From an uncultured delta proteobacterium (GTDB lineage: Bacteria; Bdellovibrionota_C; UBA2361; CAIXSY01): DNA of 35,997 bases. A program made the position numbers and the translations under genes. The DNA is taken from assembly GCA_903922175.1 (NCBI GenBank), contig CAIXSY010000301.1:1-35997 (forward strand). The letters are read 5' to 3'. Below, piece after piece: positions 2,880 through 25,179 of the stretch. Under the pieces are notes generated by a model. It searched no databases. It saw only the letters and a list, made by a program, of their open reading frames with translations, and was not told the origin of the DNA. Within the stretch, counting starts at the first letter, position 1; the number at the start of each line of letters is the position of its first letter.

Positions 2880-3596
2880 TTAAGCGAAAAGCGCAGTCTC
2901 CTCTTCCCGCAACGGGCGCCACTGCCCCTCGGCTAAGCCAGTGAGCGTAAGCGCCCCCACCGTGCTGCGGTGCAACGCCACTACTTTATTGCCCATTTGC
3001 TCCCACATGCGCTTGACCTGGTGATAGCGCCCTTCGTGAAGTATAAGCTCAACATGATGAGAATCTCTAACGAGCACCTCAACCGGCAAGAGAGGTGTGC
3101 GTTCATCTTCAAGCATAAGGCCACCGGCTTCGAAGAGTGCTTTTTCATCGCCGCGAACTGCTCGCTCTAGGGCAACCTCATACCTCTTCGGCACCTGTCC
3201 ACGTGGTGAGGTGACGCGGTGCAAAAAACTGCCATCATCGGTGAGGAGAAGTAGCCCAGTGGTGTCCTGATCAAGTCGCCCGATGCAACACAGCGGCGGG
3301 TTACGCGCCAAAAACCTTTCGGGCAGAAGCTTAAAGACCGTCTCCCCTTCACTCTCACTATGCGTGCAGACATACCCTGCCGGTTTGTGGAGCATAATAT
3401 AGAGCTGCTCGACATCAAGCGCCTCGCCATCAAAACGCACCTCATCAGCCACGACCCTATCATCTGCCCGTAGCTTCATCCCATCGACACGAGCTACCAC
3501 CTCAGCTCGGATGAGCCCGGGCACCTGGCCACGTGAGCAGTACCCAAGATTAGAGAGGAGTCGATCGAGGCGCTTCTTGCTGGTCTTGTTTTCCAA
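2880..3596 (-). CDS. rsuA: RsuA-family 16S rRNA pseudouridine synthase
   Basis: A 238-aa enzyme that isomerises a specific uridine in rRNA to pseudouridine. An N-terminal S4 RNA-binding domain (KRLDRLLSNLGYCSR...) is followed by the catalytic domain with the family signature GRLDQDTTGLLLLTDDG; the catalytic Asp is about residue 109. The motifs YIMLHKPAGYVCT and EGRYHQVKRMW are typical of the RsuA/RluB/RluE branch. I chose the TTG start at 3594-3596, with AAGAGA just upstream, because longer in-frame starts would overlap livG by over 120 bases and add a non-homologous leader. It still overlaps livG by 47 bases. Whether the target is U516 of 16S RNA or another site is inferred. Confidence 0.9.
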   Translation of the reverse strand: MENKTSKKRLDRLLSNLGYCSRGQVPGLIRAEVVARVDGMKLRADDRVVADEVRFDGEALDVEQLYIMLHKPAGYVCTHSESEGETVFKLLPERFLARNPPLCCIGRLDQDTTGLLLLTDDGSFLHRVTSPRGQVPKRYEVALERAVRGDEKALFEAGGLMLEDERTPLLPVEVLVRDSHHVELILHEGRYHQVKRMWEQMGNKVVALHRSTVGALTLTGLAEGQWRPLREEETALFA

Positions 3597-4392
3597 AGTA
3601 GATCTCTTGTAAAAGTTGATTCGAACGAACTTTTTCGGGAACATCATCAAGCACGACACGCCCGGAATCGAGAACGACGATCCGTCCACAAAATTTCTGA
3701 ATGAAATTGATATCGTGCTCAATCACGATAACGGTCTTGCCCATCTGATGAAGTTTTTTGATAAGCCCGACGACCTCCTCCTTCATCTTCGGAGAGACAC
3801 CTGCCGTCGGCTCATCGAGCAGAAAGAGCTCGGCACCGTAAGCCAAGGTGCGCACAATCTCAAGCAAGCGCATCTGTCCGCCAGAAAGGCTCGATGCCTT
3901 ATGCGAGGCCTTAACCTCTAAATTTACCTCACGCAGGTGTTCGCGCGCCATGGCGATATTATCACGCGTGACCTTGCCCCAGGGGAAGAAGGTCTTATAC
4001 ATCGGTGCCCGGCCCTCGATGGCGGTGAGCACATTCTCGAGCACGCTCATCTCACGAAAGATGCCGAAATTCTGGAATATCCGGCCGATACCGTGCTCAG
4101 CCCTACGATAGGGCGCTTCGTGCTGTATCTCCTTGCCGCGAAATAGAATCTTGCCCTGCGTTGCCGGACAAAATCCGCTGATGCAATTAAAAAGAGTGGT
4201 TTTCCCCGAACCGTTCGGTCCGATAATACCGACAGTCTCACCCGAGGTAATAGCAACGTTGACACCATTAAGAATTGAAGAGCCTCCCAAGGTGCAGTAG
4301 AGATCCTGAGTACTCAGCATCACCTCTCTGACCTCGGAGAGGTCGCCAACATTGGGCGGCTCTGTTGTGGCTGTGATCTCTTGATTGTTCAT
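3550..4392 (-). CDS. livG: LivG-type branched-chain/hydrophobic amino acid ABC transporter ATPase
   Basis: A 280-aa cytoplasmic ATPase energising import through the two adjacent permeases. Visible motifs are Walker A GPNGSGKT, the LivG-type Q-loop in RIFQNFGIF, signature LSGGQMRLLEI, Walker B ELFLLDEPTAGVSP and the H-loop IEHD. The insertion around FFPWGKV after the Q-loop is usual for LivG rather than LivF. The ATG overlaps the livM stop by one base, implying translational coupling. A LivF partner and a periplasmic binding protein are not in this window. The N-terminal extension of about 28 residues before the ABC core is slightly long. Confidence 0.92.
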   Translation of the reverse strand: MNNQEITATTEPPNVGDLSEVREVMLSTQDLYCTLGGSSILNGVNVAITSGETVGIIGPNGSGKTTLFNCISGFCPATQGKILFRGKEIQHEAPYRRAEHGIGRIFQNFGIFREMSVLENVLTAIEGRAPMYKTFFPWGKVTRDNIAMAREHLREVNLEVKASHKASSLSGGQMRLLEIVRTLAYGAELFLLDEPTAGVSPKMKEEVVGLIKKLHQMGKTVIVIEHDINFIQKFCGRIVVLDSGRVVLDDVPEKVRSNQLLQEIYFGKQDQQEAPRSTPL

Positions 4393-5444
4393 TATATTTT
4401 ACGCTCCACGGGGAAGATCGCCTCACGCTTCCAATACACCACCCCGAATAGAATCAGGGCATGCAAAAGTTGACGCATCGGTCCAAGAATACTCGAATCA
4501 ATATGGGTAAAGCGCAGGGGTTCGGGCAAAAGAACGAGAAAGAAGGTTGCCGCGATGACTCCCCAAAAAGCGCCAGGACTTCCAACAACGACGATGGTGA
4601 GAACAAAGACCATCTCCGGAAAGGCAAACGAAGAGGGGTCGATGTAGTTCAAATAGTAGGCGAAAAAGCTTCCAGCTAACCCGGCGGTTGCCGAGGAGAT
4701 AAAGAAACACACATTGCGATCGATGCGCGTCTTTTTCCCCAAAGCGAGCGAAGCCACCTCGCTCTCAGCTTGGGCGCGAAGCGACCGTGCGAACGAACTG
4801 CGGAAGAGAAGCCAGCAGTACCCCTGGACTATAATCACGAAGATCAGCAGCAAAACCAGAAAATTGGAATTGGTATAGAAAAAGTTCTCACTATTGTAAT
4901 CGGTCACCCAGCGTGAAAGGAAGTAATCGAGGATGTCGCTCCGCGGGCGTGGAATTCCAGGTATTCCAAGTACGCCGCGGGTCAAACTCTTCCAATTAAT
5001 CAGCAGAGCCGAGATCACCGAGGCAAAGGCGATCGTACCGATGGCGAAATATTCCTGGGTTAGGCGCAAAGAGATCGCGCCGATGCTCACCGCAAAAAGA
5101 CCACTCAAGGCAATGCTCGCGAAGATACAGGGGAAGAACGAGTAACCGCCTAGTTGGACGGGCTCAAACCCAAGCGCGAAACAGGCGCTGCCAACACAGG
5201 TGCAAAGCTCCGTGCAGGCCTCTTGGCTTGAGACACTGTGCAGCGGAAGCCAGATAGTGAAATCGGTCGACATCAGCGCCGTGGTATAGGCACCCACAGC
5301 ATAGGCAGCAATATGCGCCAGGTTAAAAAGACGGGCGACACCAAAGGTAAGATTAAATCCCTGCGCCAGAATGAGGTAAATGCCAACCAGGATAGCCAGA
5401 TGGACGCTATAGTCAGATAAAAGATATTCGATGAAGGTATCCAT
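4392..5444 (-). CDS. livM: LivM-type ABC transporter permease
   Basis: A 350-aa polytopic inner-membrane permease of the HAAT (LivM/LivH) family. It begins with a hydrophobic helix and the typical LAQGFNLTFGVARLFNLAHIAAYAVGAYTTAL region, and ends with VVGSPGAFWGVIAATFFLVLLPEPLRF, both characteristic. A Cys-containing stretch near residues 77-95 (CTELCTCVGSACF) lies in the first periplasmic part and is unusual for the family. Five bases separate it from livH. It pairs with LivH to form the channel for branched-chain or related amino acids or amides; the substrate cannot be told from sequence. Confidence 0.9.
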   Translation of the reverse strand: MDTFIEYLLSDYSVHLAILVGIYLILAQGFNLTFGVARLFNLAHIAAYAVGAYTTALMSTDFTIWLPLHSVSSQEACTELCTCVGSACFALGFEPVQLGGYSFFPCIFASIALSGLFAVSIGAISLRLTQEYFAIGTIAFASVISALLINWKSLTRGVLGIPGIPRPRSDILDYFLSRWVTDYNSENFFYTNSNFLVLLLIFVIIVQGYCWLLFRSSFARSLRAQAESEVASLALGKKTRIDRNVCFFISSATAGLAGSFFAYYLNYIDPSSFAFPEMVFVLTIVVVGSPGAFWGVIAATFFLVLLPEPLRFTHIDSSILGPMRQLLHALILFGVVYWKREAIFPVERKI

Positions 5445-5449
5445 AGCGA

Positions 5450-6340
5450 TTATGCTGAACGTGAGCTTACCTTAAACAGTCCCTGCGGCCTAAAGAGCAA
5501 GATCCCCAAGATAATCACAAAGGCAAAGGCATCTTTATACCCCGCCGGAAGACTGTATCCCCAAAAATCAAGCCCGATGCTTAAGTTTTCAATCAGCCCA
5601 AGGAGGTAGGCTCCGGCGATAGTTCCCCAGATATTACCTAAGCCACCAAGAATCATCGCTGCAAAGGCCTTGATAGTGTAGGCATTGCCCATCGTCGGCT
5701 GCAGGTTTGTCTCGAAACCGACGAGCACCCCGGAAAAGGCCGCCAACAGCGTGCCCGCCGTAAACACCAAAAAACTTATGCGGCGCGCGCTAATCCCGAT
5801 CGTCTGTGCGGCAAACTCTTCTTGCGCCAGGGCGCGAATCTTACGCCCGAAGCTCGTCAGATGAATTACAAAGGCGAGGAGGAAGAGGATAATAAGCGCA
5901 CTAGCGATAATTAAAATCTGTGTTGGAGTAATGAACATCCCCCAGAACTCGATGCTGCGTATCTCAAACCCCGTGGTCAAACTCTTGACGTTAACCCCGA
6001 AGAGCATCGACACCGAAGACTCAAGGATGGTGGAGAGGGCCAAGGTGGTGACAAACGGGAGAAAGATACTAAAACGTAAAAAAGGCTCAACAAATATATG
6101 CAGTGATATCCATGAGAGAATCACGGTTATCAGCACCGTGACGAGGCTCGCCTCCCATAGCGGATAGCCCTGCATCACGTAGGCGAAATAGAAGGCATAG
6201 GCACCGGCCATCATCAGGTGTCCATGAGCGAAGTTGAGGATCCGCAGTAATCCAAAGGTAAGCGATAGCCCAGAACTGGCTAATGCATAGATGCTGCCCG
6301 CAATAAGTGCGTTCAGCAGAAGCTGCGGTAATATCTCCAT
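5450..6340 (-). CDS. livH: LivH-type ABC transporter permease
   Basis: A 296-aa polytopic permease. The motif SIYALASSGLSLTFGLLRILNFAHGHLMMAGAYAFY is the LivH signature region, and AFAAMILGGLGNIWGTIAGAYLLGLIENL is the conserved cytoplasmic EAA-like loop region. I chose the ATG at 6338-6340; a TTG at 6347-6349 is in frame three codons upstream but has no better ribosome binding site. It forms the membrane channel with LivM, energised by LivG. Fifty-six bases separate it from the upstream TPR lipoprotein gene, so it probably shares the same transcript. Confidence 0.92.
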   Translation of the reverse strand: MEILPQLLLNALIAGSIYALASSGLSLTFGLLRILNFAHGHLMMAGAYAFYFAYVMQGYPLWEASLVTVLITVILSWISLHIFVEPFLRFSIFLPFVTTLALSTILESSVSMLFGVNVKSLTTGFEIRSIEFWGMFITPTQILIIASALIILFLLAFVIHLTSFGRKIRALAQEEFAAQTIGISARRISFLVFTAGTLLAAFSGVLVGFETNLQPTMGNAYTIKAFAAMILGGLGNIWGTIAGAYLLGLIENLSIGLDFWGYSLPAGYKDAFAFVIILGILLFRPQGLFKVSSRSA

Positions 6341-6396
6341 TCTTAGCAAAAGATATCTAAAATCAGGTAGTTATGCAACATTGCGGGTGACCGCCC

Positions 6397-7374
6397 CTAC
6401 GAATCCTCCGCCGTAGCTGCAATCAGCCCCTCGATAGCCTCGACCATCCGCCCCGGCCAGGTTTGCACCTCCTTATTGCCCAGATCTACCGATGGCCCGA
6501 TCTCTTCCCAGATCAGCTTAAGCTGCTCTTTTGCCTTGTCGTCTAAGGTCGCCGCTACTGCGGGATCGGTAGAAGCGGCAAGACGCACCAGCCGCGCTTC
6601 ACGCATCAAGGAGGTATCAAGATTGCCCTCTCTAAGAAGTTGGCTTTCTGACTCGAAGGCTTCCTTCAGCTGACCGCGGGCAAGAGAGATTAGACTATGA
6701 AGATGCGTCACTCTCGGCTCTTGAAGCAGGTTATGATCGGTGGCGAAGGCTGAAATAAAGCTCTCCGCCGCCTGGGGCTGATCGTATTGCACAAGGAGTC
6801 GTGCATATTCATACGCACTTGGAAGATCATTCTTTAAGACACAGAGCAGATAGGCACAGCAAAGCGTCTCTCTCTGCCGCCCCAAACGGCGAGAGATGGT
6901 GAAGAGCCCGTTCGCGGCTTTGGCAGCAGTTACAAAGTCACGCGTTTCTTCGGCGGAATCTAGAATCTGCTGATAGCGCTTTTCTGCAACGTCCCAGTGC
7001 TCCTGGGCTGCCGCTAGGTGCGCTAAACGAAAAAATATATCCGTCGGCGGCTTTTTATCAATCACGCGCGCAAGCGGTTCGAGGATCTGCGCGGCCTGAT
7101 CAAACTGCGCATTGCCCTCCAGCGCCACCGCAAGGTTTAGGCGCAGGTTCTGCGCGTTGGGCGCCAGGTAGAGCGCCTGGCGTAGTCGACTTTCGGCGTC
7201 GATGTAACGATCTTCAGAAAGATAGGAAAGTCCCTCCCGCGCCAGTTCAACGGCGCGCAGATCAAGCGCCGGCACAAAATGCTGCTCAGAGCGCTCTGAT
7301 GGCGCCAAGGCGCAGGCACTGAGCAAGAGCACCAAAGCAACACAGGTGAGAAGATGAAATCTAGCTAAACACAT
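6397..7374 (-). CDS. TPR-repeat lipoprotein
   Basis: A 325-aa exported protein with a signal peptide and lipobox LLSAC (Cys21), so it should be lipidated and tethered to a membrane facing the periplasm. Residues about 40-240 form tetratricopeptide-like helices, for example REGLSYLSEDRYIDAESRLRQALYLAPNAQNLRLNLAVAL and AEKRYQQILDSA. TPR proteins act as protein-binding scaffolds; the partner here is unknown. It starts five bases after the glycosyltransferase stop and is followed by livH, so these genes look cotranscribed. Family assignment is from repeat pattern only. Confidence 0.85.
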   Translation of the reverse strand: MCLARFHLLTCVALVLLLSACALAPSERSEQHFVPALDLRAVELAREGLSYLSEDRYIDAESRLRQALYLAPNAQNLRLNLAVALEGNAQFDQAAQILEPLARVIDKKPPTDIFFRLAHLAAAQEHWDVAEKRYQQILDSAEETRDFVTAAKAANGLFTISRRLGRQRETLCCAYLLCVLKNDLPSAYEYARLLVQYDQPQAAESFISAFATDHNLLQEPRVTHLHSLISLARGQLKEAFESESQLLREGNLDTSLMREARLVRLAASTDPAVAATLDDKAKEQLKLIWEEIGPSVDLGNKEVQTWPGRMVEAIEGLIAATAEDS

Positions 7375-7379
7375 TACGC

Positions 7380-8069
7380 CTAGGCCCCGAGGTTATACTT
7401 GAGAATTGCATAGATCGCACGAAAGCCATCGCGCATGCCGATCTTCTTCCCCTCGGCGTAGGTCCGACCGTAGTAGGATATTCCAACCTCGTAGATACGG
7501 CAATTCTGCCGCGCCACCTTGGCTGTAATCTCCGGCTCAAAGCCGAAACGCTCCTCCTCTATCTCAATCGACTGTATTACCTCACGACGAAACATCTTGT
7601 AACAGGTCTCCATATCCGTAAGATTTATATTGGTAAACACGTTGGAGAGAAGCGTCAAAAAGCGATTGCCGATCATGTGCCAAAAGAAGGCTACACGATG
7701 CGGCTGCCCACCCATAAAACGCGAACCGAAGACAACATCAGCTTTGTTTTTAAGGATCGGATCCATGAGCAACGGATACTCATTGGGATCGTATTCGAGA
7801 TCCGCATCCTGAACGACAACTAGATCGCCTGTCGCATGCCGGAACCCAGTGCGAAGCGCCGCCCCCTTTCCCTGATTTACCTCGTGGTAAAGAACCTTAT
7901 GCACATTGCCCTCAATCTCGCTCTTTAGAAGCGCAGTTGTGCCATCGGTCGAACAATCATCAACAATGATAATCTCCTTATCCTCAACCGGAGATGCCTT
8001 GACCGCAGCAACGATATCCTTAATCGTATCTTTTTCGTTATAACAGGGGATCACAATTGAAAGTTTCAT
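7380..8069 (-). CDS. Family 2 glycosyltransferase (dolichol-phosphate mannosyltransferase-like)
   Basis: A 229-aa cytosolic GT-A enzyme. It begins [16 protein letters not shown], then [25 protein letters not shown] and the metal-binding QDADLEYDP (DxD type), followed by VFGSRFMGG. This pattern matches the DPM1/polyprenyl-phosphate glycosyltransferase branch of GT2, which makes lipid-linked sugar donors. No C-terminal membrane helices are present. I chose the internal ATG at 8067-8069, because upstream in-frame codons lie in the inverted-repeat element B and the family start is exactly here. The sugar and acceptor are unknown. Confidence 0.88.
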
Positions 8070-8119
8070 GTCCGTACTATGCCCGAAGGTTATAAAGGTG
8101 TCATCTTTGGTAAAATAGC

Positions 8120-8342
8120 GTAATTGCTCATTAAGTCTGGGTAATTCTAAATCTTGAACATGAACTGGAACTGTTCCCGATTCCTGCTCCCTTCGACTCG
8201 GTCGCAAGCTCCCTCGCTCAGGACCGAGGCCTGCCCCTTATCCTCTTGATCGGACTAGGAAAAGGGGCAGGGGCAGGAATCAGGAGCAGTTCAAGTGCAA
8301 GTTCAAGCAATTTCCTTTTACCCGAGGTTATTGAGCAGTTAC
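8120..8342. repeat. MITE-like inverted-repeat element, copy B (complete, 223 bp)
   Basis: The best-preserved copy. The 25-nt ends 8120-8144 and 8318-8342 are near-perfect inverted repeats, beginning GTAATTGCTCATTAA on the left and ending TTATTGAGCAGTTAC on the right. A second pair of arms of about 38 nt (8153-8190 and 8270-8307) continues the pairing, with ATTCCTGC / GCAGGAAT at the inner edge. The middle contains a GACTCGGTCGCAAGCTCCCTC block resembling dispersed CTTCGACTTCGCTCAGG repeats. No coding capacity. It sits upstream of the glycosyltransferase operon. Confidence 0.75.
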
Positions 8343-8752: not shown

Positions 8753-9814
8753 ATGCCGCACTCATTACGTCTCTCTGATATCGCTTCTATTACCGGCGCC
8801 GAGCTAATCGGAGATCCCAATGCCGAAATTTTCGGCCTATGCCCACTGGATGAGCCCATAGCGACTCACCTGTCCTTTACCAAGGATATCGCTCCCAAAA
8901 ACTTGACGCCGATCCTAACTCCGCTGCTCGTTCGAGCCCTTATCGTCCCGCAACGCATTAACCGCGCACTACTGCCAACACAGGGCAACTTCCTGCTGGC
9001 CGCAGATCCGTTTGCGGCCATAGTCAAGCTGATCGCGCTTTTTTATCCGGCGCAGAAGCCAAGTGGAAAGATCAGCGATCGGGCCGATATTCACCCTAGT
9101 GCCAAGATTGCAGCGGGCGTCAGTATCGGCGCCTTTGTTGCCATTGCCGAAGACGTGATCATTGAGGAGGGCGTCGTCATCCACCCCCACGTAACCATCT
9201 ATCGCGGCGTACGTATCGGCAAGGGATGCCTGATTCACTCGGGCGTAACCATTCGCGAAGAGTGTCAGATCGGCCCCGGCGTTATCTTGCAGAACGGGGC
9301 GATTATCGGGGCCGACGGATTCGGTTATATGAACGAGTCTAAGCCAGGCTCCCCAATGCTGACGAAGGTGCCGCAAGTTGGCACGGCCGTGCTTGGACCA
9401 TGCTGCGAGGTCGGCGCAAACAGCTGCGTCGACCGAGCAGCACTGGGCACGACACAGATCGGCGCGCACACCAAGCTCGACAACCTCGTCCAGGTTGGCC
9501 ACAACACCAAGATCGGCGCCTTTAGCATCGCCTGTGGCATGGTGGGGATCGCAGGCTCATGCAAGATCGGAAACGGGGTCGTGCTCGGCGGCAATGTCGG
9601 CCTCGCCGATCATCTTACTATTGCCGATGGTGTTCGTCTTGGGGCCAAGAGCGGCGTGATTAGTGACATCACCGAAAAAGGCGACTACGCCGGGTTTCCA
9701 CCTGTACGCGCCCTCTCCTGGCGAAGGCAGCTTAAGGCGATTGCGGAGCTACCCGAGATAATTGAAGATCTGAAGAAACTCTTAATTCAAAAGAATCAAA
9801 AGAAGGAGTCATAG
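8753..9814 (+). CDS. lpxD: UDP-3-O-acylglucosamine N-acyltransferase
   Basis: A 353-aa cytoplasmic homotrimeric acyltransferase. It adds the second, N-linked hydroxyacyl chain from acyl-ACP to UDP-3-O-acylglucosamine, the third step of lipid A synthesis. It has the N-terminal uridine-binding domain (about 1-100), then many left-handed beta-helix hexapeptide repeats (about 105-310), with the probable catalytic His250 in DNLVQVGHNTKIG, and the usual C-terminal helix ending RALSWRRQLKAIAELPEIIEDLKKL. Length is close to the E. coli enzyme (341 aa). It is not beside fabZ-lpxA as in many genomes; instead a VWA lipoprotein gene starts 3 nt after its stop. Confidence 0.96.
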   Translation: MPHSLRLSDIASITGAELIGDPNAEIFGLCPLDEPIATHLSFTKDIAPKNLTPILTPLLVRALIVPQRINRALLPTQGNFLLAADPFAAIVKLIALFYPAQKPSGKISDRADIHPSAKIAAGVSIGAFVAIAEDVIIEEGVVIHPHVTIYRGVRIGKGCLIHSGVTIREECQIGPGVILQNGAIIGADGFGYMNESKPGSPMLTKVPQVGTAVLGPCCEVGANSCVDRAALGTTQIGAHTKLDNLVQVGHNTKIGAFSIACGMVGIAGSCKIGNGVVLGGNVGLADHLTIADGVRLGAKSGVISDITEKGDYAGFPPVRALSWRRQLKAIAELPEIIEDLKKLLIQKNQKKES

Positions 9815-18021: not shown

Positions 18022-18068
18022 GAGTGGAGAAGGCCGGCATAACGCCTGCCCCTATGGAGGAAACCGTG

Positions 18069-18734
18069 ATGAAAACTATACGCCGTTGGACATCTGCACT
18101 CACCTCGAGCTTTGAATGGATGATTAGCCAAGTCGAGAACCACGAGGCTCTGGTTACTTCGTCGATGAAGGACGTACAGGAGGCCGGGGCCCGGGCGCAG
18201 GTACAGCTCAAACGCATGCGCCTTGATGGTCAGCAGATGCGCAAACGACTCGCTGATCTGCGCGAGCAGGTAGAGCTCTGGTGCAGTCGCGCCAAAGCTT
18301 CGGCCGATGTCGATGAGAAGCGCGCCCTTGAATGCATTAAACGCAAAAAACGGATCGAGCGCGAAATCGGCGAGATCGAGGAGCAGGAGCGCGACCACAC
18401 CAAGCTCGAGAAGCAGCTCACTCAAGATTTAGTCGTGATCGACGACCGGCTGACGCGACTACGCCAGCAGCGCAATGCCCTGCGCACTCGCCAGTCACGT
18501 GCCGAGGCGCTACGCTCGCTGCAAAATGACGATGGCTTGGTAATCTCAGAAATTGACGAGATCTTCGATCGCTGGGAGACGAAGATTACCGAGTATGAGG
18601 TGCAGGCCTCATGCCGACTTGACGAGAAAGACGACCTTGAAGCTCAGTTTACCAGCGCTGAGGAGGAATCGGCCCTCAAGGAGGAACTAAAAACGCTGCT
18701 CGGTGCGCCCCTTCCAGAGACCAAGGTAGCCTAA
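18069..18734 (+). CDS. PspA/IM30-family membrane-stress protein
   Basis: A 221-aa coiled-coil protein of the ESCRT-III-related PspA/Vipp1 family, which polymerises on the cytoplasmic face of the inner membrane to preserve it under stress. The family pattern is visible: amphipathic N-terminus MKTIRRWTSALTSSFEWMISQVENHEALV, long coiled coil (about 40-150), then IDEIFDRWETKITEYEVQASC and a C-terminal FTSAEEESALKEELKTLLG, equal to the PspA end. I chose ATG 18069 because GGAGG (18056-18060) lies 8 nt before it; starts further upstream lack a site. Thirty-three nt separate it from the polytopic membrane protein, a likely partner. Confidence 0.88.
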   Translation: MKTIRRWTSALTSSFEWMISQVENHEALVTSSMKDVQEAGARAQVQLKRMRLDGQQMRKRLADLREQVELWCSRAKASADVDEKRALECIKRKKRIEREIGEIEEQERDHTKLEKQLTQDLVVIDDRLTRLRQQRNALRTRQSRAEALRSLQNDDGLVISEIDEIFDRWETKITEYEVQASCRLDEKDDLEAQFTSAEEESALKEELKTLLGAPLPETKVA

Positions 18735-18767
18735 ACCAAACAAAACCAACCAAACGGAGAAATACCT

Positions 18768-20192
18768 ATGAACACCACAGACGCAACCATACCGACGACC
18801 CCCGATGAGGGGGTCCTCGCCGAAATTGACAGCGCTCTTGCCGCCGATAGGAGCACTCAGGCGCCGGGCCTCGACCCGGCGCGTGTCGCCGCCAATGCCA
18901 AAGAGGAGCACGTGGCCCATTCACTCTCAAAAATTCTGCGCTTCATTGGCGCTATCGTGATCATCGTCGCCTCAGCCACGTTTCTCCTACAGCGCTGGGA
19001 GGGAGCCGATCATATCATGCGCTACTACTCATTTCTGGGCTTTACCGCCCTGCTCTCGTTAACCGGGTTCATGTGTGGATTAAAGATTCACGAAGATAAG
19101 GGCGCACGCACATTCCTCGGCATCGCCGCGGCGCTGATCCCGATTAACTTCTGTGCCCTGGGCGGACTCGGCTACTCACGAGTACTGGCCCATGCTGGAC
19201 GGGACCTGCACTATAACCTCATCACCCGCTGGGTTGCCCCCACGGATGAAGCTGCACTAACCGCAACGCTTCTTGCATTTGCGGTGATGGCGCTACTCTC
19301 GTTTATCTCATTCTCGGCACTTCTGCGCAGCGAACGCGGGCGGCTAACGGGTTTGTTTATGCTGGCCAATTCGACACTCCTCATCCCCAGCCGCGATGCC
19401 GGGATCATGGCGATGCTTGCTGTCGTGCTCTTTACCGCGCTAACTCAATACGATTACTTCATCCTGCGCAAAGCGCCTGGAGCTCAAACCCGTGAAGGGT
19501 CCATCGTGCGTGCAATTATCGCCATGCCATTTCTTGCGATACTGACACGTGCCCTGTTGGTTTATCTCTTTAATCTCTCTGCCCTATTTGCCGCGGCCCT
19601 ATTTGCCATGCTGGCGCTAACACTCTTTACCTACCTGCCCGCCTACCTTAAGAGCGCCGCTGCCAAAAAGGTCTCTCAATCCTTTAGTTTAGTTCCGGCA
19701 ATGGTCGCCTGGGGGTGTTTTGCCGCGCAATTTGTGGAGCCCATTGCCGTAGCCACGGCCGCCCAGTTCAGCTTCTATACCTTGCCCATCGCAGCGCTCT
19801 TCACGCTTATGTCACTGTACTGCGAGCAATCACTTGCTCCCAGACTGCGTAAAGCCTCGGCGCTCTTCGCCATCGCTTCGATAAGCCTCTGCCTGATCGC
19901 TTTTCCGGGCGCGGTCGCTGCATTCTTGTGCATCACCGTCTCCCTGGTGCTCATAACCTATGGCTACCTGATCGAGAACAGCACCATATTGATCTCGGGC
20001 ATCGCCGGGTTTACCTTCGGAATCGCCTATCACCTGCGCTATGCCATGGATCTGTACAGCTACTGCCCGTGGGTTTGCTTAGCAGCTCTCGGAGTATCTA
20101 CCGTCGTTGCCTCATCGCTGATCGAACGTCACTACCAAAAGATGCTCGCCTCGCTACGAGGATTTCACGGAAAGATTAAGACTTGGGAATAA
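18768..20192 (+). CDS. Polytopic membrane protein paired with PspA-like gene
   Basis: A 474-aa integral inner-membrane protein. Residues 1-55 are a polar cytoplasmic head (MNTTDATIPTTPDEGVLAEIDSALAA...). Then about 13 hydrophobic segments follow from residue 60, for example ILRFIGAIVIIVASATFLLQ, LLSFISFSALL and AVAAFLCITVSLVLITYGYLI, ending in a basic tail. A ribosome site ACGGAGA precedes the ATG. I do not recognise the family; it has no transporter signature. Its tight spacing to the PspA-like gene suggests a shared transcript and a membrane-integrity role, as PspA partners often are membrane proteins; that is inference. Confidence 0.8.
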   Translation: MNTTDATIPTTPDEGVLAEIDSALAADRSTQAPGLDPARVAANAKEEHVAHSLSKILRFIGAIVIIVASATFLLQRWEGADHIMRYYSFLGFTALLSLTGFMCGLKIHEDKGARTFLGIAAALIPINFCALGGLGYSRVLAHAGRDLHYNLITRWVAPTDEAALTATLLAFAVMALLSFISFSALLRSERGRLTGLFMLANSTLLIPSRDAGIMAMLAVVLFTALTQYDYFILRKAPGAQTREGSIVRAIIAMPFLAILTRALLVYLFNLSALFAAALFAMLALTLFTYLPAYLKSAAAKKVSQSFSLVPAMVAWGCFAAQFVEPIAVATAAQFSFYTLPIAALFTLMSLYCEQSLAPRLRKASALFAIASISLCLIAFPGAVAAFLCITVSLVLITYGYLIENSTILISGIAGFTFGIAYHLRYAMDLYSYCPWVCLAALGVSTVVASSLIERHYQKMLASLRGFHGKIKTWE

Positions 20193-20207: not shown

Positions 20208-20254
20208 AGCGCTGCGCGACCTGTCCTGAGCGAAGTCGAAGGAAGCGCAGCGCT
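20208..20254. terminator. Hairpin between convergent genes
   Basis: AGCGCTGCGC (20208-20217) pairs perfectly with GCGCAGCGCT (20245-20254), with a 27-nt loop containing GTCCTGAGCGAAGTCGAAGG, a dispersed repeat common in bacteria. It touches the mreB stop codon and lies 15 nt after the membrane-protein stop, so it may end both transcripts. No U-run follows. Confidence 0.5.
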
Positions 20255-21267
20255 TAGGAGAGTAGATCTTTATACGTTTCATATTTCTCCATGCACCTCC
20301 CCGCGCCTTCAACGACAGCGGCGAGAGGGTCGGGAGCAACGTGAACGGCGATATTGAGTTCCTGACTGATGCGCGCATCGAGTCCCTTAAGCAGCGCGCC
20401 GCCACCGGCGAGCGCAATGCCCACCGAGAGGATATCGCCCGAAAGCTCAGGAGGCGTATTTTCAAGCGCCTGGCGGATAGCGGCAACGACCGTGGCCACC
20501 ACCTCCTCGATCGCCTGGCGAATCTCGCCTCCCTGAATCACCATCGCGGCAGGAGCGCCCGAGGTAAGGCTTCGTCCACGAACCTCCATCTCCTGGTGAT
20601 CATAGTCGGGGTGAGCACAGCCGATGGTCTTTTTGACGAGCTCGGCGGTTGTTTCGCCAATCAAGAGGTGATGTTGACGGCGGAGCATGTTGATGATCGC
20701 CTCGTCCATGGCATCTCCCCCCTGGCGCACGGACACAGAGTAGACGAGATCCTTGAGGCTAATAACGGCGACGTCTGTTGTCCCGCCACCGATATCGACG
20801 ATGAGGCTGGCGGCCGCCTCGGTTACCGGCAAGTTACAGCCGATGGCAGCAGCCATGGCCTCATCGATTAGGCGCACCTCGCGTGCTTCTCCTTCGAGAG
20901 CATCGCGAATGGCTCGCTTTTCCACCTCCGTAATCCCACTTGGAACACCAACGACGGCACGAGGCTTCATGAAAGAGAAGCCGTGCTTGCGCGTCTTAAG
21001 CAAAAAATGCTTCAGCATCATCCCCGCAGCCTCAAAGTCGGCGATGACACCGGTACGCACCGGGCGTACCACCTTGACACCTTCCGGTGTGCGCCCGAGC
21101 ATAACTTTGGCCTCGGCCCCATAAGCCACCGGCTCACGCCGCTGACCGATATATTTGACTGCTATAATCGAGGGCTCATTGACGACTATGCCGCTCCCCT
21201 CTTCGTAAATGAGAGTATTGGCAGTGCCGAGATCAATGGCGATATCACGCGAGAGTATACGAATCAT
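20254..21267 (-). CDS. mreB: Rod shape-determining protein MreB
   Basis: A 337-aa bacterial actin homologue that polymerises under the inner membrane and guides cell-wall synthesis. Motifs of the actin ATPase fold: AIDLGTANTLIY (phosphate 1), LIDEAMAAAIG, SLIVDIGGGTTDVAVISL (phosphate 2) and GIALAGGGALLKGLD (adenosine site). Length is normal for MreB (about 330-350). It is not followed by mreC-mreD, which often lie downstream; here the next gene is convergent. Start ATG 21265-21267 has no strong ribosome site. A TATACT -10 candidate lies on the minus strand at 21299-21304. Confidence 0.96.
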   Translation of the reverse strand: MIRILSRDIAIDLGTANTLIYEEGSGIVVNEPSIIAVKYIGQRREPVAYGAEAKVMLGRTPEGVKVVRPVRTGVIADFEAAGMMLKHFLLKTRKHGFSFMKPRAVVGVPSGITEVEKRAIRDALEGEAREVRLIDEAMAAAIGCNLPVTEAAASLIVDIGGGTTDVAVISLKDLVYSVSVRQGGDAMDEAIINMLRRQHHLLIGETTAELVKKTIGCAHPDYDHQEMEVRGRSLTSGAPAAMVIQGGEIRQAIEEVVATVVAAIRQALENTPPELSGDILSVGIALAGGGALLKGLDARISQELNIAVHVAPDPLAAVVEGAGRCMEKYETYKDLLS

Positions 21268-21646: not shown

Positions 21647-22963
21647 CTAACCGCCCCGCAACTCCTCTCGCAGGAGCTTGAGCAGCGCGATATTGTCCGA
21701 ATGTCCGGTCATATGCGCCGTAACCTTGCCGCGCAGCGGCCGGCCGAGCAGATAAAGATCGCCGATGGCGTCAAGGATCTTGTGTCGCACCGGCTCATCT
21801 TTAAAACGTAGTTCACCGTTAATGGCCCCTTGATCCCCGAAAAGGACGAAGTTATCGAAGCGCCCGCCCAGGGCCAACCCTTGCTTCTGCAGGGCGCCGA
21901 TGTCTTTGACAAAACCGAAGGTGCGTGACGGCGCAATGGCGCTCTTGTAAGCCTCAACATCATTTAACCGAAAAACCATGTGCTGACGGCCAAGCGGAGC
22001 CGGATAATCAAGCGTGTAGTCGATGACAAAATCATCAGCAGCTTCAATTTCTATCCACTCGCGGTCTTTACCGACACGCAACTTCTTCGAAACTTCAATC
22101 TCGAACCAATCTCCCTGTTGGACATCAAGGCCGATCTCTTCGATCAGAGCGCAAAATTGCCGGGCCGAACCATCCATCACCGGAACCTCTCCGTTGCACT
22201 TTATGAGGAGATTCGAAACACGATAGGCATGTAACGCCGACATTAAATGTTCAATCGTACCCGCGCGCGTGGCACCGAGACTAACCGTAGTTGCAAACCC
22301 CGTTGAACCAACATAATCAACGTGCGCCGGAACTGGGGTGGAATCAGCTATCCCCACAAAATGTATGCCTGAGTTCGGTGGCAACGGCTCGAGGATAAGT
22401 CCACTCTTCTTACCGGAATGGAGCCCCTGGCCATATAAAATGGCGCTCTGTGCCAACGTCCGCTGCTGCACCTTTCTGCCTCTATGCGTTTGCTGGCCAA
22501 AAACTATCGGAGTTATGCGCTCCACAGGCGAACTATCTATGCCTAACTCAGCACGATTTTGGGGACTAGGATCAAGTACCACATCAAGCTGCGCTGCCAC
22601 GGGTGCTGGAGTCAGGACGCGGCGCACCGCCTCCAGCGTCACGTTGAGATCAAGCGGCTTTTCAATAAAATCGGCGGCCCCAAGCCGAGTCGCCGAAATA
22701 GCCGTCGCTATCGTGGCGTGACCGCTAATCATAATCACCGCCGTCTGTGGCGCCAAAGCTTTAATCTCTTTAAGGGTCTCCATGCCGTCGCGACCAGGCA
22801 TCCAGATATCAAGCAACACGACCGCGGGCGCAAGTTCGCGCACTATTTTAATCGCGCTCTCGCCGTCAGCGGCGCTCAAGACGTCGAATCCTTCATCCTT
22901 AAATATATTTTCAAGCGAGCGCCGAATACTCGCCTCATCATCAACAACAAGGATCTGTGTCAT
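21647..22963 (-). CDS. lpxC: Receiver domain-LpxC fusion: UDP-3-O-acyl-GlcNAc deacetylase
   Basis: A 438-aa fusion. Residues 1-120 are a complete CheY-like receiver: D8/D9, phospho-acceptor D52 in VVLLDIWMPG, S80, K102 in FIEKPLD; the sequence is closest by eye to NtrX/NtrC receivers. A linker (about 121-165) follows. Residues about 166-438 are LpxC, the zinc deacetylase committing UDP-GlcNAc to lipid A: E238/H239 in TIEHLMSAL, T348 in SRTFGF, H394/K395 and D398 in RHKILDAIGD, H421 in TGHSDN. The long C-terminal tail of E. coli LpxC is absent. I chose ATG 22963, four nt after purA; 22984 is an alternative. Last gene of the operon. Confidence 0.95.
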   Translation of the reverse strand: MTQILVVDDEASIRRSLENIFKDEGFDVLSAADGESAIKIVRELAPAVVLLDIWMPGRDGMETLKEIKALAPQTAVIMISGHATIATAISATRLGAADFIEKPLDLNVTLEAVRRVLTPAPVAAQLDVVLDPSPQNRAELGIDSSPVERITPIVFGQQTHRGRKVQQRTLAQSAILYGQGLHSGKKSGLILEPLPPNSGIHFVGIADSTPVPAHVDYVGSTGFATTVSLGATRAGTIEHLMSALHAYRVSNLLIKCNGEVPVMDGSARQFCALIEEIGLDVQQGDWFEIEVSKKLRVGKDREWIEIEAADDFVIDYTLDYPAPLGRQHMVFRLNDVEAYKSAIAPSRTFGFVKDIGALQKQGLALGGRFDNFVLFGDQGAINGELRFKDEPVRHKILDAIGDLYLLGRPLRGKVTAHMTGHSDNIALLKLLREELRGG

Positions 22964-22967
22964 AAGT

Positions 22968-25179
<2,212 letters not shown>

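Follow-up and report, generated by a model that had tools for sequence, protein, structure and literature searches.

The window, the whole 35,997-nucleotide stretch of DNA analysed here, encodes on its minus strand a protein in which the receiver domain of a two-component system is joined in one reading frame to LpxC, the committed enzyme of lipid A synthesis. Domain searches, gene neighbourhoods and phylogenetic trees together make it probable that a histidine kinase controls this committed enzyme post-translationally, through an NtrX that traded its DNA-binding output for LpxC. Such a protein would have a single origin in an lpxC-ntrY-ntrX neighbourhood, reached via receiver-AAA+-LpxC proteins that are still extant, and would be the form in which LpxC usually occurs both in the window's phylum and among Nitrospinota.

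The fusion gene and its conservation in the window's phylum

The reading frame of 438 aa begins with an ATG at 22961-22963 and ends with a stop at 21647-21649, while the plus strand of 21647-22963 carries stops throughout. An earlier note on this DNA had placed the receiver and LpxC in one frame at 21647-22963, which is right, and had not stated the strand, which is minus. The features to which we refer below are as follows.

21647..22963, minus strand: gene for the receiver-LpxC fusion, 438 aa; no other lpxC found in this genome
22625..22954, minus strand: receiver (Response_reg), residues 4-113, NtrX-type; Pfam E 1.2e-30, best response-regulator model NtrX
22808..22810, minus strand: Asp52 codon, predicted phospho-acceptor; D in 72 of 72 distinct fused receivers
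22658..22660, minus strand: Lys102 codon, conserved receiver lysine; K in 72 of 72 distinct fused receivers
22466..22624, minus strand: interdomain linker, residues 114-166, variable in the alignment; 121-149 predicted disordered, pLDDT <50
21671..22465, minus strand: LpxC deacetylase domain, residues 167-431, with E238, H239, T348, H394, K395, D398 and H421; Pfam E 1.2e-78, lpxC equivalog above cut-off
22968..24281, minus strand: purA, 4 bp upstream of the fusion and on the same strand
20254..21267, minus strand: mreB-like gene 3′ of the fusion, same strand; likewise downstream in several relatives
8753..9814, plus strand: lpxD, a later step of the lipid A pathway; NCBIfam lipid_A_lpxD 297 bits, cut-off 242

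Both halves of the protein are recognised well above threshold, the receiver with 106 bits against Pfam Response_reg (PF00072, cut-off 30) and the LpxC domain with 265 bits against PF03331 (cut-off 27), and the LpxC part additionally scores 227 bits against the NCBIfam lpxC equivalog (TIGR00325, cut-off 187). The earlier note had called the receiver NtrX-like and had seen no DNA-binding domain after it, in accordance with our searches: the NtrX equivalog NF051870 is the best response-regulator model, and it covers the receiver only, at 110 bits, below its 600-bit cut-off. The fusion has an NtrX-type receiver but is not NtrX, as it carries neither the sigma-54 AAA+ domain nor the Fis-type HTH.

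The receiver landmarks D8, D9, E10, D52, S80 and K102 are all present in the window protein and are invariant across an alignment of 29 members that are 51–67% identical to it, as are the zinc ligands and catalytic residues of LpxC (E238, H239, T348, H394, K395, D398 and H421). The earlier note had listed these residues, E10 aside, from the single sequence, and the alignment bears the list out. In the predicted structure the receiver and the LpxC domain each fold with confidence (mean pLDDT 84, pTM 0.67), and the LpxC half matches the crystal structures of E. coli, Pseudomonas and Aquifex LpxC; the model gives no firm contact or orientation between the two domains. Several positions separate fused from unfused LpxC, among them G188, L194, K255 and C271, and these could possibly form an interface.

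No second, stand-alone LpxC was found in the window genome (assembly of 4.79 Mb in 432 contigs, 94% complete). Since this genome has lpxD, inside the window, and lpxK, elsewhere, lipid A synthesis is probably active, with the fusion as its sole visible LpxC. The cluster rimP-nusA-ylxR-infB-rbfA-DHH-truB-purA, which ends with purA, is found 5′ of the fusion in several relatives as well.

All 46 genomes of the window's phylum were searched, and 37 carry the two domains within a single frame; of these, 34 are full length, two are cut by contig ends and one is divergent (G001). In G011 and G038, and tentatively in G040, the receiver and LpxC halves lie on separate contigs, and the remaining genomes are incomplete or without a full LpxC. 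Contigs of this group are labelled deltaproteobacteria, Oligoflexia, Dadabacteria or simply bacterium.

One reading of the earlier note is not supported by its evidence. It had observed that the C-terminal tail carrying the FtsH degradation signal in E. coli LpxC is missing, and had offered the hypothesis that phosphorylation replaces proteolysis. The tail is indeed short, at 17 residues past the last catalytic His, and as evidence it carries nothing, as unfused LpxCs of Negativicutes and Margulisbacteria end 13–23 residues after the same His. Because unfused tails are also short, and because the LpxC degron is largely confined to Enterobacteriaceae (PMC12444477), a replacement of proteolysis by phosphorylation cannot be read from the tail.

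A candidate partner kinase

In Binatota and in SZUA-224 an NtrY-type kinase (NtrY_N, HAMP, PAS, HisKA and HATPase) lies directly 5′ of the fusion, with the two reading frames overlapping in several loci, and in Nitrospinota ntrY also adjoins the fusion. The order in Binatota is yebC-ruvC-ruvA-ruvB-kinase-fusion, where the yebC and ruv names, at this and the other kinase loci, are what we take these genes to be from their translations. Within the window's phylum no kinase adjoins the fusion, which sits 4 bp after purA instead. An NtrY_N kinase is nevertheless encoded in 40 of the 46 genomes, as a single copy except in G024, and four of the six genomes that gave no NtrY_N match hold kinase fragments or a shortened kinase. 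At the inspected loci the genes run yebC-ruvA-ruvB, mostly a DUF4390-like gene, and then the kinase, with no regulator downstream, so that the yebC-ruvA-ruvB neighbours of this orphan kinase match those of the Binatota kinase. The kinase of the window genome itself (L142 6321-8585) has HisKA, HATPase, HAMP and NtrY_N all above cut-off; the DUF4390 match before it (L142 5428-6066) has an E of 8e-4, which is below cut-off.

In the kinase tree the orphan kinases form one clade with support of 100. They retain the H, N and G boxes, and their DHp motif, WREVARRIAHEIKNPLTPIQLSAQRL, is nearly identical to that of linked NtrYs. On the grounds of synteny, orthology and co-occurrence, the orphan NtrY-type kinase is probably the cognate kinase of the fusion in the window's phylum. 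We also considered a kinase lineage specific to fusions, which the tree does not support: kinases from fused and from separate systems intermingle in it, and their grouping probably tracks the species.

Two genomes of the phylum are exceptional. G001 has no NtrY-type kinase, and its fusion (L071 5404-6639) has by far the most divergent fused receiver, with the acceptor residues kept, while in G002 neither an NtrY-type kinase nor LpxC was detected. Separately, DUF4390 genes occur 5′ of NtrY-type kinases in SZUA-224, Nitrospinota and others (L059 4868-5458, L070 3546-4310, L169 3328-3906), which takes DUF4390-NtrY pairs outside Proteobacteria and beyond the range given in PMC13001219.

Spread across phyla and probable origin of the fusion

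The 29-member fusion alignment was used as the query for a scan of 85,000 genomes, which returned 80 loci, half of them (40) with receiver and LpxC in one frame. These fused loci belong to the window's group, to Binatota and relatives named as deltaproteobacteria, to the Nitrospirae SZUA-224, to Aminicenantes/Acidobacteria, to Nitrospinota and to one Spirochaetes-named bin. The earlier note had asked whether related genomes hold the fusion; beyond the 37 of the window's own phylum it thus recurs in Binatota, Nitrospinota, Aminicenantes and others. The frequency differs between groups. Among 118 further genomes near a Binatota member, about 28 have the fusion and about 75 a stand-alone LpxC; in the Aminicenantes class, about half of the genomes with detectable LpxC have the fusion; and in Nitrospinota LpxC was detectable in 19 genomes, in every one as part of a long frame (538–962 aa). 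Across 72 distinct fused receivers, D9, D52, W54, K102 and P103 are present without exception and position 80 is always Ser or Thr, which settles in the affirmative whether the acceptor Asp singled out in the earlier note is conserved.

The fused LpxCs sampled form a single clade. An LpxC tree of 73 rows has a branch, with support of 100 and length 0.66, that divides the 48 fused sequences from the stand-alone LpxCs, and the LpxCs linked to ntrY-ntrX fall on the stand-alone side. In several Methylomirabilota and relatives of Binatota (L169-L176, L080, L081), lpxC, often a DUF4390 gene, ntrY and ntrX are separate same-strand neighbours, and these neighbourhoods suggest that NtrYX and lpxC have long been linked, and in many lineages. 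Nitrospinota and others have ntrY followed by the gene for a receiver-AAA+-LpxC protein of ~680–780 aa (L177, L178, L180-L182, L066, L068-L070). The AAA+ part of these proteins matches sigma-54 activators (Pfam E 3e-25 to 3e-7) and seems degenerate, since the GAFTGA loop is missing in nine of nine and the Walker A motif is often missing too.

The receiver-AAA+-LpxC proteins would be surviving intermediates between NtrX and receiver-LpxC. It is likely that an NtrX encoded beside lpxC gave up its Fis-type DNA-binding domain and took on LpxC in its place, and that the AAA+ part later decayed and was lost. This loss probably happened more than once, since forms with and without AAA+ are intermixed in the tree. 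A tree of the receivers was set aside as evidence of where the receiver came from: its 119 columns do not suffice for a firm placement of the fusion within NtrX, the L071 branch is very long, and NtrC outgroup rows fall inside the ingroup. The LpxC tree was relied on in its place. The NtrY partner, the lpxC-ntrY-ntrX neighbourhood and the receiver-AAA+-LpxC intermediates are stronger evidence than anything on which the earlier note relied.

Envelope genes also occur next to fusions in these phyla. Downstream of the Nitrospinota fusions come a purN-like gene, lolA and a gene for an M50 protease (RseP-like; L070 8846-11355, L066 8833-11298), and in SZUA-224 the M50 protease gene comes directly after the fusion (L059 9437-10537).

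Proposed control of LpxC and its alternatives

Judged by its sequence, the system is probably a two-component system derived from NtrY-NtrX whose output domain is LpxC. We consider it quite likely that the fusion acts as a response regulator with an LpxC output, by which an NtrY-type kinase would set lipid A flux post-translationally via Asp52. The NtrY-type membrane histidine kinase would sense an envelope or periplasmic signal, possibly relayed to it by the DUF4390-like periplasmic partner, and would phosphorylate or dephosphorylate Asp52 of the receiver. The phosphorylation state would alter the conformation or dimerisation of the receiver, the activity of the tethered LpxC would shift, and the flux into lipid A would be set post-translationally. 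Both the phosphotransfer from kinase to fusion and the change in activity that would result are steps that we infer. As to sign, we lean slightly towards relief of LpxC inhibition on phosphorylation, by analogy with CheB. Several observations count against the mechanism: the divergent fusion of G001 is kept without the kinase, in the window's phylum the kinase lies apart from the fusion, the predicted structure has a disordered linker and no confident interface between receiver and LpxC, and neither the receiver tree nor the kinase tree sets the fused systems firmly in place.

Other roles for the receiver can be weighed against the same evidence. The receiver could set the abundance of LpxC instead of its activity, with phosphorylation deciding the delivery of the protein to FtsH, ClpXP or Lon, much as receivers serve as proteolysis adaptors in RssB and CpdR; in that case proteolysis would be the route by which phosphorylation acts, and would not be replaced by it. 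The flexible linker would suit such a role, and proteolysis is how E. coli controls LpxC, with Lon implicated elsewhere (PMC12444477). However, the fusion has no long C-terminal tail, the best relatives of its receiver are of the NtrX and NtrC types and not RssB or CpdR, and the LapB zinc-ribbon family was found in none of the 46 genomes of the phylum, a count obtained with a short model of limited sensitivity; control through proteolysis is therefore unlikely in our estimation. A receiver that mainly docks or dimerises, tying LpxC to the membrane kinase or setting its oligomeric state with phosphorylation playing a minor part, would account for the conserved pairing with a membrane kinase and agrees with a predicted structure that gives no confident interface. 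Such a role leaves aside the invariance of Asp9, Asp52 and Lys102 in 72 divergent fused receivers and the retention of H, N and G boxes by the kinases, and we give it little credence.

Nor does the receiver look like a remnant. Gene fusions can be neutral, and the receiver might be a functionless vestige of one, but its acceptor residues have been kept over several phyla while the intervening AAA+ part decayed and was lost, which makes this explanation very improbable. The simplest objection, named in the earlier note, is that an assembly or sequencing error such as a frameshift joined two neighbouring genes. The window assembly is fragmented, in 432 contigs, but dozens of independent assemblies, from several phyla, contain the same join, their LpxCs form one clade, and an artefact is refuted. 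Of these readings, control of LpxC activity by phosphorylation of the receiver is the one we favour.

Published links between such regulators and lpxC fit the idea that the NtrY kinase family acts on LpxC. Loss of NtrYX in Rhodobacter sphaeroides raises the lpxC transcript ~ninefold and LPS ~twofold, which may be indirect (PMC7240162), and in Caulobacter NtrYX is reported as a repressor of lpxC (PMC12444477). In D. vulgaris, lpxC is the single target of the regulator DVU2934, and in S. fumaroxidans lpxC lies upstream of the operon orthologous to that of DVU2934 (PMC3333781). DVU2934 resembles the fusion as a two-component regulator devoted to lpxC, with lpxC beside the orthologous S. fumaroxidans operon, but it is an unfused DNA-binding protein that acts on transcription (PMC3333781). 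The link between regulator and lpxC appears direct here, whereas it is transcriptional in Desulfovibrio, Rhodobacter and Caulobacter. The relation to NtrY-NtrX is closest, including Bordetella PlrSR, where genetic evidence has PlrP (DUF4390) acting on the NtrY-family kinase (PMC13001219): the kinase domains are NtrY-type, the receiver is NtrX-type, many members have a DUF4390 gene 5′ of the kinase, and NtrY-NtrX influences the envelope and lpxC transcription. In contrast to NtrX, the regulator in the fusion has no DNA-binding domain, mostly no AAA+, and LpxC as its output. The FtsH-LapB-YejM system of E. coli and the control of LpxC in Pseudomonas likewise act post-translationally on the committed step of lipid A synthesis, as we propose here for the fusion (PMC12444477); unlike the E. 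coli system, the fusion has no degron tail, the LapB zinc ribbon was not found, and the two-component module is covalently attached.

Response regulators with enzyme outputs and LpxC-FabZ fusions are both kinds of protein that are already known. CheB, PleD and RpfG have enzymes as outputs, with a phosphorylated receiver followed by a catalytic domain. The arrangement is the same in the fusion, where phosphorylation is predicted, but their outputs are signalling enzymes. The fusion shares the fold and all catalytic residues of the LpxC family, for which LpxC-FabZ sets a precedent for a fused LpxC; it differs in carrying a receiver at the N terminus, not a dehydratase at the C terminus, and in forming its own LpxC clade. 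In the openly licensed literature we found no description of a receiver-LpxC architecture, which may be described elsewhere or in domain databases, and the words 'receiver' and 'fusion' are absent from a 2025 review of lipid A regulation.

LpxC is essential in most Gram-negatives, and its control varies, from proteolysis in E. coli through other routes in Pseudomonas to transcription in alphaproteobacteria. If the proposed mechanism is true, an envelope-sensing kinase is wired directly to LpxC by one protein family found in several phyla, and the fusion would be, as far as we found, the first case of a lipid A biosynthetic enzyme serving as the output of a response regulator. It would then record a circuit that once acted on gene expression and came to act on the enzyme itself, with its intermediates extant, and would make the signal of NtrY directly testable by an enzyme read-out.

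Two further gene groups were noted in the window. On the plus strand at 18024-20192, a PspA/IM30-like protein is followed by a 474-aa, apparently multi-spanning protein with no Pfam match, and both genes converge on mreB. On the minus strand at 2880-8207, genes for a branched-chain-amino-acid-type ABC transporter (ATPase and permeases) adjoin those for a TPR protein and an AglJ-like glycosyltransferase.
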